NCBI RefSeq assembly: GCF_027257935.1
Contig: NZ_JANZKW010000002.1
Location: forward strand, 62,001-126,000
Direction: 5' to 3'
Length of the DNA: 64,000 nt
Source: Chitinimonas sp. BJYL2
GTDB taxonomy: Bacteria > Pseudomonadota > Gammaproteobacteria > Burkholderiales > Chitinimonadaceae
This document shows, one piece after another, positions 54,497-59,122 of this stretch (position 1 is its first letter; each line of letters starts with the position of its first letter). The notes below the pieces were generated by a model, which saw only the letters and a list, made by a program, of their open reading frames with translations, was not told the origin of the DNA and did no database searches. The position numbers and the translations under genes were made by a program.

Positions 54497-55900
54497 ATGG
54501 CCGCTGCCCGTAAAGCCAAGAACACCAAGCTCTTCGTGCTGGATACCAACGTGCTGATGCACGATCCGACCAGCCTGTTCCGTTTCGAGGAACACGATGT
54601 CTGTCTGCCCATGGTGACGCTCGAAGAGCTCGATGGGCATAAAAAGGGCATGAGCGAAGTCGCGCGCAATGCGCGGCAGGCCAGCCGCTTCCTCGACGAG
54701 ATCGTCAGCGGCAAGGAAGGTGAGATCGTCGCCGGGGTGGCGCTGACCGGTCCGTCCAAAGGCATGGCGACGGGCCACCTGTTCTTGCAGACCGAGGCCA
54801 CCACGGTGGCGTTGCCGGCCAATCTGCCGGTCGGCAAGGCGGATAACCAGATCCTGACAGTGGTCATGCAGCTGGCACAGCAACACGCCAAGCGCGAAGT
54901 CGTGTTGGTGTCCAAGGACATCAATATGCGCATCAAGGCCCGTGCGCTGGGTCTTGCGGCGGAGGATTACTTCAATGACCAGGTGCTCGAAGATACCGAT
55001 CTGCTCTACACCGGTGTGCGCGAGATCGACCAGGCCTTCTGGGAGAAGAACGGCAAGGACATGAAGAGCTGGCAAGAAGGCGGCCGCGCCATGTACCAGC
55101 TCAAGGGTCCGGACTGCCCGAGCCTGCTGCTCAACCAGATGATCTGGCAGGACGGCGACAAGCCTTTCCTAGCGATGGTGAAGTCGGTTGAGGGCAAGAC
55201 GGCGGTACTCGAATCGATCAAGGACTACAGCCATCCCAAGAACGCGATCTGGGGCATTACCGCGCGTAATCGCGAGCAGAACTTCGCCATTAACCTCCTG
55301 ATGAACCCGGATATCGATTTCATTACATTGCTGGGTCAGGCTGGCACGGGCAAAACCCTGCTGACCATTGCCTCGGCCCTGATGATGACGCTTGAAGAAA
55401 AGCGCTACACCGAAATCATCATGACGCGCGTCACCGTGCCGGTGGGTGAAGACATCGGTTTCCTGCCGGGCACCGAAGAGGAAAAAATGGCCCCGTGGAT
55501 GGGGGCGCTCGAGGACAACCTCGACGTACTCAACCAGACGGATGCCGAATCGGGTGAATGGGGCCGTGCCGCCACGCGCGATCTGATCCGCTCGCGTATC
55601 AAGGTGAAGTCGCTTAACTTCATGCGCGGCCGTACCTTTCTCAACAAGTTCCTCATCATCGACGAGGCGCAGAATCTCACGCCCAAGCAGATGAAGACCC
55701 TGATCACCCGCGCCGGTCCCGGTACCAAGGTGGTGTGCCTGGGCAATATCGCGCAGATCGATACACCTTACCTCACCGAGGGGTCATCAGGCCTGACCTA
55801 TGTGGTGGATCGTTTCAAGGGCTGGGGGCATTCGGGCCACATCACGCTGCAACGTGGTGAACGTTCGCGGCTGGCGGATCACGCGGCCGAAGTGTTGTAA
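54497..55900 (+). CDS. PIN-PhoH ATPase (PhoH2/YlaK type)
   Basis: The 467-residue protein joins an N-terminal PIN ribonuclease domain (about 10-150, with acidic LDTNVLMHDP) to a PhoH ATPase domain. The latter has Walker A GQAGTGKT at 280-287 and Walker B FLIIDEAQNLTPKQ. Members of this type act as RNA helicase/ribonucleases in some bacteria, and the PIN part recalls toxin nucleases although no antitoxin gene is adjacent. GAGGAAA precedes the ATG. Confidence 0.92.
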   Translation: MAAARKAKNTKLFVLDTNVLMHDPTSLFRFEEHDVCLPMVTLEELDGHKKGMSEVARNARQASRFLDEIVSGKEGEIVAGVALTGPSKGMATGHLFLQTEATTVALPANLPVGKADNQILTVVMQLAQQHAKREVVLVSKDINMRIKARALGLAAEDYFNDQVLEDTDLLYTGVREIDQAFWEKNGKDMKSWQEGGRAMYQLKGPDCPSLLLNQMIWQDGDKPFLAMVKSVEGKTAVLESIKDYSHPKNAIWGITARNREQNFAINLLMNPDIDFITLLGQAGTGKTLLTIASALMMTLEEKRYTEIIMTRVTVPVGEDIGFLPGTEEEKMAPWMGALEDNLDVLNQTDAESGEWGRAATRDLIRSRIKVKSLNFMRGRTFLNKFLIIDEAQNLTPKQMKTLITRAGPGTKVVCLGNIAQIDTPYLTEGSSGLTYVVDRFKGWGHSGHITLQRGERSRLADHAAEVL

Positions 55901-55907
55901 GCAGCCA

Positions 55908-55939
55908 TTTGCCCGGCTCAGGGCAGCGAGCCGGGCAAA
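55908..55939. terminator. Hairpin after the phoH-like gene
   Basis: A perfect 12-base stem (TTTGCCCGGCTC at 55908-55919 with 55928-55939) has an eight-base loop but no T-run on the coding strand. A TACAAT -10-like box (55947-55952), possibly for parA, follows it closely. Confidence 0.55.
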
Positions 55940-55987: not shown

Positions 55988-56758
55988 ATGACTATCATTG
56001 CCGTGTTCAACCAGAAAGGCGGCGTGGGTAAAACCACCACCACCGCCAACCTCGCTGCCGCTATGGCGCGCAACGGGCTCAACCCGCTCGCGATTGATCT
56101 GGACCCGCAGGCGCACCTGACCAGCATGTCGGGGGTCAAGCTACCCGCCACCAAAACGGCTGTTGGTTTTTTTCAGAACCACACGCCCTTGTCGGATCTG
56201 GTGGTGCAGTTACCTAATCAGGTCAATCTGATTCCTTCCCACATGGAGTTGGCGCGCATCGACATGATGCTGGGCAATAATCGTCGTGACTTGCGTGTGC
56301 TGAAAAAGGCGATGGCAGAGGAAATGCTGTCGAGCAGTGATACGCCAGTGCTGATCGATTGTTGCCCGATGCTGGGTGTTCTGTCGCTCTCCGCGCTGAT
56401 TGCGGCGGATGTCGTACTGGTGCCGGTTACAGCCGAGTATCTCGCCATGAACGGTGCGCAGCAGCTGGATCAGACTCTCAATGGTCTTACTGCGCAGGGC
56501 CTTTATCGGCCGCGAAAGGTGTTCATCAATCGCTATCAGCGAGGCCACACCACCTCGGAAAAGGTGCTGCATGAGCTTACCCGCCGCTATGGCAGAGACT
56601 TTTGCCGCACCCGTGTGTTCGAAAGCCAGAGCGTGCTGGAAGGGGTTGGCAACAATCAGGATGTATTCAGCTACGCCCCCGACTCAGAAGGTGCTGAGGA
56701 CTTCGGCTTCCTGCTCGATGAGCTGATCGAGACGGGATTCATCAAGGTCAATCTGTGA
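55988..56758 (+). CDS. ParA/Soj family ATPase, orphan
   Basis: This 256-residue Walker-type ATPase has KGGVGKT at 10-16, the A' segment IDLDPQAHLTS and a Walker B-like VLIDCCPMLGVLSL. Chromosomal ParA normally pairs with ParB beside gidB; here no ParB-like gene is nearby, so this is more likely a cargo-positioning ParA (for example polysaccharide, chemotaxis or pole functions). The classical IDCPPSLG reads IDCCPMLG. The next gene overlaps it by four bases, making that TPR protein its likely partner. Confidence 0.88.
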   Translation: MTIIAVFNQKGGVGKTTTTANLAAAMARNGLNPLAIDLDPQAHLTSMSGVKLPATKTAVGFFQNHTPLSDLVVQLPNQVNLIPSHMELARIDMMLGNNRRDLRVLKKAMAEEMLSSSDTPVLIDCCPMLGVLSLSALIAADVVLVPVTAEYLAMNGAQQLDQTLNGLTAQGLYRPRKVFINRYQRGHTTSEKVLHELTRRYGRDFCRTRVFESQSVLEGVGNNQDVFSYAPDSEGAEDFGFLLDELIETGFIKVNL

Positions 56759-57657
56759 TTCGGGTACTGCTGGCCGCTTTGCTGTGCGTGGCAGCGGAGG
56801 CAGCCGACATCGACAAGCTGTGGGATTTTGACCTGCCGGCAGAATCTGAACAGCGCTTCCGCACGGCACTGGTAGCGGCACAGCGTGAAGCGGATGTTGC
56901 CCTGCAGGCCGAACTGGTTACCCAGATTGCACGTGCACGCGGCTTGCAGGGTGATATGGCAGCAGCCAATGCTGCGCTTGATAGTCTGGTTCCCCGCCTG
57001 GCGGAGCTTCCTCCTGCAGTCAGCGTACGCTACATGCTTGAGCGCGGCCGTCTGTATCAGCTCGCTACGGACATACCCAAGGCCAAGCGGTGGCTACGTA
57101 ATGCGCTATCTCATGCGCAGCGGCATCAGCTGGATTATCTGGCGATTGATGCCTTGCAAATGCTGGGTTACCTGGAAACGGCCAAGAATGCCGTCGGCTT
57201 GCAGATGCAGGCACTCAATCTGGCACTGGCCAGCCAGGACCCGCGCGCGCAGAACTGGCTGGGTGTGCTCTATCAGAATCTGGGTTGGACCTATCGTAAT
57301 CAGCGTGATTATCCCAAGGCGCTCGATTTCTTCCGGCAGGCGCAGGCTTGGCACGAGCAGCGCGGCGGCGGCAAACCTTGGCTGATTGCCCGCTGGAGTG
57401 TGGCCAAGGTATTGCGCGAATCCGGCGAGCCTGACAAGGCATTGCTGATACAACTGGATGTGGAGCGCGGCTGGCAGAAATTGGGCCAGACGGATGGTCA
57501 CGTACTGGAAGAAATTGGCGAGAACCTGCTGACCTTGGGGCGTCGTGCCGAAGCGCGTCCCTACTTTGTACGCGCGCTAGACGTGCTGTCCCGTGACCCG
57601 TGGTTTGCCCGGAATGAGCCGGCTCGCCATGCACGGCTCGCCAAACTGGCGCAGTAG
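56755..57657 (+). CDS. Exported TPR-repeat protein of unknown function
   Basis: The 300-residue protein starts at a GTG that overlaps the parA stop. It has a short signal-like N-terminus (about 1-16, RVLLAALLCVAAEA) and then helical repeats in TPR style, clearest around NWLGVLYQNLGWTYRNQRDYPKAL near 164-187 (split around 180). If exported it would be periplasmic, which makes direct contact with cytoplasmic ParA unlikely unless the N-terminus is a membrane anchor. Function unknown. Confidence 0.78.
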   Translation: MIRVLLAALLCVAAEAADIDKLWDFDLPAESEQRFRTALVAAQREADVALQAELVTQIARARGLQGDMAAANAALDSLVPRLAELPPAVSVRYMLERGRLYQLATDIPKAKRWLRNALSHAQRHQLDYLAIDALQMLGYLETAKNAVGLQMQALNLALASQDPRAQNWLGVLYQNLGWTYRNQRDYPKALDFFRQAQAWHEQRGGGKPWLIARWSVAKVLRESGEPDKALLIQLDVERGWQKLGQTDGHVLEEIGENLLTLGRRAEARPYFVRALDVLSRDPWFARNEPARHARLAKLAQ

Positions 57658-57691: not shown

Positions 57692-59122
57692 TTATTCGCC
57701 TGAGGACCAGCCCCCGCCGGGTAGTGCCGCATTCTCGAAGCGTGAGTAGTGGCCCAGGAAGGTAAGCTTCACGACACCGGTAGGACCATTACGGTGTTTG
57801 CTGACAATGATCTCAGCCAGGCCTTTGTCGGGCGAGTCCGGATTGTAGTACTCGTCTCGGTACAGGAACATGATCAAGTCGGCATCCTGTTCAATGGCGC
57901 CCGATTCCCGCAAGTCCGACATCATGGGCCGTTTGTTGGGCCGTTGCTCCACCGAGCGGCTCAGCTGTGACAAGGCAATGATGGGCACCTTGAGTTCCTT
58001 GGCTAGCCCTTTGAGCGAGCGGGAGATTTCACCGAGTTCGGTAGCCCGGTTCTGATCGCGGCCGGAACCCTGCATCAGCTGGATGTAATCGATGACAATC
58101 AGCCCGAGCTGGCCACCAAACTGCCGGGCCAGCCGACGCGAACGGGCGCGGATTTCCAGTGCGGTCAGCGCCGGGGTTTCATCAATGAAAATCTGCGCTT
58201 CCGATAGCTTGCCAGCGGCATAGGTGAGCTTTTGCCAATCATCGTCTTCGAGCTTGCCGGTCTTGATCTTGTGCTGGTCGAGCCGGCCCACCGAGCCGAT
58301 CATCCGCATGGCGAGCTGCGCGCCGCCCATTTCCATCGAGAAGATCGCTACTGGCAAACCGGCATCAATCGCCACGTTCTCGGCCACGTTGACCGAAAAC
58401 GCGGTTTTACCCATCGATGGGCGCCCTGCCACAATGATCAGGTCGCCACCTTGCAGACCCGATGTGCGGGAATCCAGATCGGTAAACCCGGTCGGTATGC
58501 CCGTCACATCGCTGGGATTGTCGCGGCTGTAGAGCTCATCAATACGGGTGACGACTTCCTTGAGCAGATCCGGCATGGCCAGAAAGCCCTGCTTGCCGCG
58601 CGCCGATTGCTCGGCAATCTCGAAGACTCGCCCTTCCGCCTCATCCAGCAACTGGGCCGCCTCGCGGCCCTTGGGCGCATAGGCTGCATCGGCAATATCG
58701 GTGCCCACTGCGGCGAGCTGACGCATGATCGAGCGCTCGCGCACGATTTCGGCATAGCGCTTGATATTGGCAGCGCTGGGCACATTCTGCGCGAGCGAGG
58801 CGAGGTAGGTGAGGCCGCCGATGTATTCAAGCTGACCCGCGTTGTCGAGCGATTCGGCTACCGTTACCGCATCGGCTGGGCGGCCGGTTTCGACCAGTCG
58901 GGCCACGTGGCGGAAAATGACACGATGGTCGTCGCGATAAAAGTCGGCCTCGGTGATGGCATCGGCAATCCGGTCCCAGGCGCCGTTATTGATCAACAGG
59001 CCACCCAGTACCGACTGTTCCGCGTCAATCGAATGTGGTGGCGTGCGGATCGCCATCATCTGCGGGTCTGCGTCGCGCGCTTCTTCGTTAAAATGCGGGA
59101 TGTCGTCGTGATCAAATTGCAT
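57692..59122 (-). CDS. dnaB: Replicative DNA helicase DnaB
   Basis: The 476-residue hexameric helicase unwinds DNA at the replication fork. The N-terminal primase-binding domain begins TPPHSIDAEQSVLGGLLINN. The RecA-like C-terminal domain has Walker A GRPSMGKT, DYIQLMQG, LSRSVEQRPNKRP and a final arginine-rich region. It lies divergent to ratA. The expected neighbour rplI is not adjacent in the window. Confidence 0.96.
   Translation of the reverse strand: MQFDHDDIPHFNEEARDADPQMMAIRTPPHSIDAEQSVLGGLLINNGAWDRIADAITEADFYRDDHRVIFRHVARLVETGRPADAVTVAESLDNAGQLEYIGGLTYLASLAQNVPSAANIKRYAEIVRERSIMRQLAAVGTDIADAAYAPKGREAAQLLDEAEGRVFEIAEQSARGKQGFLAMPDLLKEVVTRIDELYSRDNPSDVTGIPTGFTDLDSRTSGLQGGDLIIVAGRPSMGKTAFSVNVAENVAIDAGLPVAIFSMEMGGAQLAMRMIGSVGRLDQHKIKTGKLEDDDWQKLTYAAGKLSEAQIFIDETPALTALEIRARSRRLARQFGGQLGLIVIDYIQLMQGSGRDQNRATELGEISRSLKGLAKELKVPIIALSQLSRSVEQRPNKRPMMSDLRESGAIEQDADLIMFLYRDEYYNPDSPDKGLAEIIVSKHRNGPTGVVKLTFLGHYSRFENAALPGGGWSSGE

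Follow-up and report, generated by a model that had tools for sequence, protein, structure and literature searches.

A solitary ParA-type ATPase gene in the 64,000-nucleotide stretch of Chitinimonas sp. BJYL2 DNA analysed here (the window) belongs to a clade of orphan ParAs that is, as far as sampled, confined to betaproteobacteria and is divided into groups with distinct gene neighbours; in the home family of the window genome, parA is followed by a TPR protein gene with the sequence features of export. The reading that we favour, with a little more than even confidence, is that this ParA is a nucleoid-using positioning ATPase that in one family is cotranscribed with a periplasmic TPR scaffold and serves the same pathway. 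Orphan ParAs place chemotaxis arrays, carboxysomes and other cargo in the cell, and the usual difficulty lies in identifying the partner. A clade that extends across the betaproteobacteria with clear neighbourhood groups supplies direct candidates for tests of partner and cargo. The clade and its group-specific neighbours are a more interesting result than the gene overlap and the motif variant singled out by a preliminary description of this DNA.

The gene pair lies at positions 55988-57657, on the forward strand. The parA gene (55988-56758; ATG start, 256 aa) is defined by its open reading frame and translation, by Pfam AAA_31/CbiA matches and by its placement in trees; the TPR gene (56755-57657; GTG start, 300 aa) is defined by its reading frame, Pfam TPR matches, a signal sequence conserved in eight loci and a solenoid structure model. 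Both reading frames are under coding constraint, as real genes are: identities to the nearest locus at the three codon positions are 0.87/0.91/0.51 (parA) and 0.70/0.75/0.44 (TPR gene). A phoH-like gene precedes the pair (54497-55900, forward strand; conserved group II context in several families) and a convergent dnaB-like gene follows it (57692-59122, reverse strand), both placed by synteny and named by sequence reading. As the preliminary description had it, no ParB-like reading frame adjoins parA, in the ORF list or in the neighbourhood comparison; the adjoining genes are phoH, TPR and dnaB. The genome's own Soj-type ParA, 34% identical to the orphan, is encoded on a different contig (C1:1132804).

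The two genes share the four bases GTGA (56755-56758), and a Shine-Dalgarno-like AAGG is read seven bases ahead of the GTG start of the TPR gene, within the 3' end of parA (AAGG, spacer and start codon together spanning 56743-56757, forward strand). The overlap had been taken to imply fixed co-translation. That does not hold across the family: with ATG and GTG starts counted, the overlap is 4 bp in four of eight loci and 1 bp in two, and the remaining two have a gap of 2-9 nt instead. Short gene overlaps are common in bacterial operons, and this one is ordinary for an operon, common in the family and not fixed. The stretch separating phoH from parA contains a perfect 12-bp inverted repeat (8-base loop; 55908-55939, forward strand), present in a single copy within the 64-kb window; folding of the relatives' sequences gives most of them a strong hairpin at this site too, though not the same one, and in one case it is followed by a T run. 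Because a hairpin follows phoH in the window and in most relatives, parA and the TPR gene probably form a transcription unit of their own, separate from phoH. Scans for sigma-70 promoters and classical terminators returned no match.

The ParA protein (Pfam AAA_31, 1.7e-40) carries the deviant Walker A sequence NQKGGVGKTT, intact as had already been noted, the KGGVGKT core with its signature lysine being accompanied by the switch aspartates of ParA/MinD ATPases. The signature lysine K10, the P-loop residues K15/T16, D39 (in DLDPQ), D124, R176 and R182 are invariant in the clade, and the conservation of these lysines and aspartates argues for an active ATPase. Clade members also share the sequences FNQKGGVGKTT, DLDPQAHLT, PSHxEL and IDC(C/S)PxLGVLS. 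The sequence IDCCPMLG, previously singled out as an oddity, turns out to be the norm: it is the commonest form of IDC(C/S)PxLG, which is a clade-wide signature.

The clade comprises 95 sequences, which score at least about 190 bits against the window ParA, whereas Soj proteins score at most about 107 bits, with no sampled locus in between. Of 150 genomes sampled from the order, 78 encode a relative (E 1e-40 or better), as against none of 273 other sampled genomes of the class at the comparable threshold of 1e-45. A contig scan, the main pattern of which was the Walker A motif and which returned mostly general ParAs, added five clade members labelled Gallionellaceae, Burkholderiales, Rhodocyclales or Proteobacteria. 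A tree that includes 4 Soj sequences and 19 further ParAs as outgroups recovers the clade as monophyletic, with moderate support (0.71; FastTree, as are all support values given here). It is probably old, and apparently vertically inherited and mostly solitary. A search of the open-access literature, with most subscription papers outside its range, found no description of it.

One rival reading is that the gene is a remnant or satellite of a ParABS-type plasmid or phage partition system. In its favour, plasmid and phage ParAs are broadly similar to the window protein (about 32-36% identity; PHROG 164), but no plasmid or phage match reaches 60% identity, ParB is missing, the setting is one of chromosomal housekeeping genes, and the clade is long conserved and, in the sample, restricted to betaproteobacteria. 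This origin is very improbable.

The trees divide the clade into three main groups, each with its own gene neighbourhood and none mixed with another; two sequences of one further family stand apart. In group I, glmS lies upstream of parA in the same orientation; group II, to which the window parA belongs (support 0.93), has phoH, dnaB or tex nearby; group III has a small convergent gene downstream. Several genomes of the home family, but not the window genome, carry a second orphan ParA copy; the one such copy included in the tree (L062:4580-5801) falls in group III and has the small convergent gene. In scattered families, CheV-like, receiver-domain and GGDEF/EAL genes follow an orphan parA on the same strand (L050:4073-5014, L249:4421-5362, L225:2863-3225, L253:1186-3564, L098:3151-4578).

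Such neighbours raise the question of chemotaxis: the ParA might position chemotaxis arrays, as ParC and PpfA do, and the TPR protein might play a part in the polar envelope. All 13 surveyed group II genomes encode cheW, the sole group I genome that lacks it is only 68% complete, and the association across the survey (71 of 78 ParA-positive against 47 of 72 ParA-negative genomes) has a p value of 1e-4 that is uncorrected for phylogeny or genome size; CheV, receiver-domain and GGDEF/EAL genes behind parA point the same way. However, 79% of the surveyed genomes have cheW in any case, six group III genomes that encode the ParA lack it, and the window parA lies outside any chemotaxis operon. A chemotaxis role is possible for groups I and II; as an account of the window pair, it is unlikely. 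Polyhydroxyalkanoate (PHA) granules were rejected as a cargo: phaC is not positively associated with the ParA (47 of 78 ParA-positive versus 53 of 72 ParA-negative genomes; Fisher p 0.12).

The small convergent gene of group III encodes a protein of ~72 aa on the strand opposite to parA and just downstream of it, at 29 of 90 distinct loci (one locus, fetched twice, is counted once) in 16 families; some group III members have no such gene nearby. Examples are L052:5597-5839, L118:5765-5971 and L115:5795-6007, alongside about 28 others, and the shared motif is KFGFxIRTRxG...RDxxEAERKLxQMYxxCEI. All 34 sampled genomes that encode the protein also encode an orphan ParA of this clade, a co-occurrence with hypergeometric probabilities of 2.5e-12 by genome and 1.8e-5 by family, neither of them fully corrected for relatedness. 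The protein has no significant match in Pfam, NCBIfam or PDB sequences; its structure model is a small beta-beta-alpha-beta fold for which a fold search found no significant structural match. It is a candidate ParA partner in group III, and a small protein that co-occurs so strictly with one group while being absent from Pfam and NCBIfam is the kind of candidate that the neighbourhood groups offer. It is not encoded in the window genome, and therefore is not the partner of the window ParA.

What the window ParA has beside it is the TPR protein. The N-terminus of the window copy reads MIRVLLAALLCVAAEA and then AD, with an AXA-type site at the junction. Across the family, each of eight distinct loci opens with a short basic segment, continues with a hydrophobic stretch and has an AXA-type site immediately ahead of a conserved acidic motif; since the hydrophobic stretch and the site are conserved in all eight, a cleaved Sec signal is likely. 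Of the two fates proposed for residues 1-16, a cleaved signal or an anchor, the sequence features thus favour cleavage, and the location predicted for the protein is the periplasm. A lipoprotein is unsupported: the Cys that the window copy carries is not conserved, and parA-linked members have no lipobox. The TPR assignment made from the letters alone is borne out by Pfam (TPR_12, 5.9e-14), by the tandem 34-residue helical repeats apparent in the Pfam match, model and fold search, and by a single-sequence structure model that is an all-helical TPR solenoid (mean pLDDT 78.8). The fold search of this model returned general similarity to the TPR domains of kinesin light chain and LGN, which are peptide-binding scaffolds, and nothing specific to a function.

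The pairing is conserved within the home family. The TPR gene directly follows the orphan parA in nine of ten family genomes, which answers the earlier concern that the adjacency might be peculiar to one strain. The tenth (G001) encodes only a Soj-type ParA and has no TPR relative; phoH, parA and the TPR gene are all missing from 9.5 kb of sequence on the parA side of dnaB. In G007, phoH and dnaB still adjoin, while a different contig carries both parA and the TPR gene, together; in G004 and G009 the pair has remained with phoH but lies away from dnaB. These arrangements indicate that the two genes have stayed paired while their surroundings were rearranged. They have not evolved in step: identities across the family are 72-84% for ParA and 43-59% for the much faster-evolving TPR protein.

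When genes adjoin within a single family, inherited gene order can be part of the reason, and the view that the TPR gene is a passenger, which landed or arose behind parA in an ancestor of the family and is expressed from its transcript while being functionally unrelated, carries substantial weight; we rate it at somewhat less than an even chance. Outside the home family, parA occurs without the home-family TPR gene: more than 70 sampled genomes have the solo ParA without it, and a TPR neighbour is lacking in most of the clade. Relatives of the TPR protein occur without the ParA in two genomes (G046 and G131), and in families f32 and f38 they are unlinked to the ParA where both are present. 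Together with the opposite compartments predicted for the two products, these distributions leave unsupported the suggestion that the TPR protein is a general partner of such ParAs, and they are what a passenger would leave, as is the largely conserved gene order around the pair. Against a mere passenger stand the persistence of the pair when it was relocated (G007) and when it was parted from dnaB, in two genomes (G004 and G009), the fact that both genes are missing together in G001, and a second occurrence elsewhere in the clade. In families f29 and f39, a different and unrelated TPR gene of ~155 aa, also with export features, starts 10-75 nt beyond parA and in the same orientation at five of five group I loci (L240:3070-3522, L238:4272-4739, L236:3330-3791, L230:4156-4620, L204:3238-3717). 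Two independent cases of an exported TPR protein encoded behind an orphan parA are suggestive of recurrence. Paralogues of the TPR gene in the home family, and relatives of it, are also seen in unrelated contexts, beside a gcvP-like gene (L084, L085, L086) and after a dapB-like gene (L079, L080), the neighbours being named by sequence reading; those after the dapB-like gene may be lipoproteins.

The preferred reading, a positioning ATPase and a periplasmic scaffold in one pathway, can be spelled out as follows. The ATP-bound ParA dimer would most likely bind the nucleoid nonspecifically, by analogy with other orphan ParAs; nucleoid use is favoured by the lack of a membrane-targeting tail and by conserved basic residues. 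A partner encoded away from parA would stimulate hydrolysis, and a protein cargo would thereby be distributed or anchored. In the home family, parA would have become the leading gene of a two-gene operon in which the second gene encodes a Sec-exported TPR scaffold. Since the two proteins are predicted to lie on opposite sides of the inner membrane, direct contact is unlikely, and any link between them would pass through an inner-membrane protein; the predicted periplasmic location of the TPR protein thus makes direct partnership a less favoured account than a pathway or expression in common. In the periplasm, the TPR protein probably acts on a structure of the envelope that is needed under the same conditions as the ParA; alternatively, that structure may belong to the same trans-envelope cargo as the ParA. 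A broader proposition is put forward tentatively, as something that we consider rather doubtful at present: that solitary positioning ATPases of a hitherto undescribed family occur in betaproteobacteria and have partners specific to each lineage. These would be the undescribed 72-aa protein in group III and, on two independent occasions, a TPR protein that is exported; the latter would mean that a ParA system based on the nucleoid is wired to an envelope structure.

None of the named families tested fits these proteins, and trees and NCBIfam scores place the ParA in no identifiable clade with an established partner. BcsQ comes nearest: among the named ParA families it gives the highest NCBIfam score, and BcsC, a periplasmic TPR protein, would offer a counterpart for the second gene, so that the pair might be a BcsQ-like ATPase of a cellulose system and a BcsC-like export part. 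Yet the score (TIGR03371, 98.4 bits) is well under the cut-off of 157.85, the TPR protein has no barrel domain, and a search for bcsB (PF03170) found no match in the window genome while its control was positive in E. coli; this identity is scarcely credible. MinD/FlhG is rejected on score (minD_bact, 42.6 versus 212.9 bits) and on a C-terminus, GFIKVNL, that by eye has no amphipathic tail. The TPR protein resembles the periplasmic and outer-membrane TPR scaffolds PilF/PilW, NlpI and BamD in having a signal sequence followed by a TPR solenoid, but differs from them in that the parA-linked members have no lipobox; its PilF/PilW score (TIGR02521) is 20.5 bits against a cut-off of 154.

The Soj/ParA proteins of chromosomal ParABS systems (e.g., PDB 8ray and 1wcv) share with the window ParA the fold family, the deviant Walker A motif, about one-third of residues and the lack of an obvious membrane-targeting tail. 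The window ParA nevertheless forms part of a separate clade, has no adjacent parB at its locus, and coexists with the genome's own Soj. It also resembles the orphan ParAs that position cargo, ParC, PpfA and McdA; nucleoid use is established for ParA, McdA and ParC (PMC10241942, PMC9178275). Like these, it has no ParB, is a predicted nucleoid user and has no obvious partner. It departs from them in its surroundings: the window parA lies outside any chemotaxis operon, no McdB or carboxysome genes were seen in its neighbourhood, its neighbour is a gene for a TPR protein predicted to be exported, and the neighbour of parA in the sister group is an undescribed 72-aa protein.
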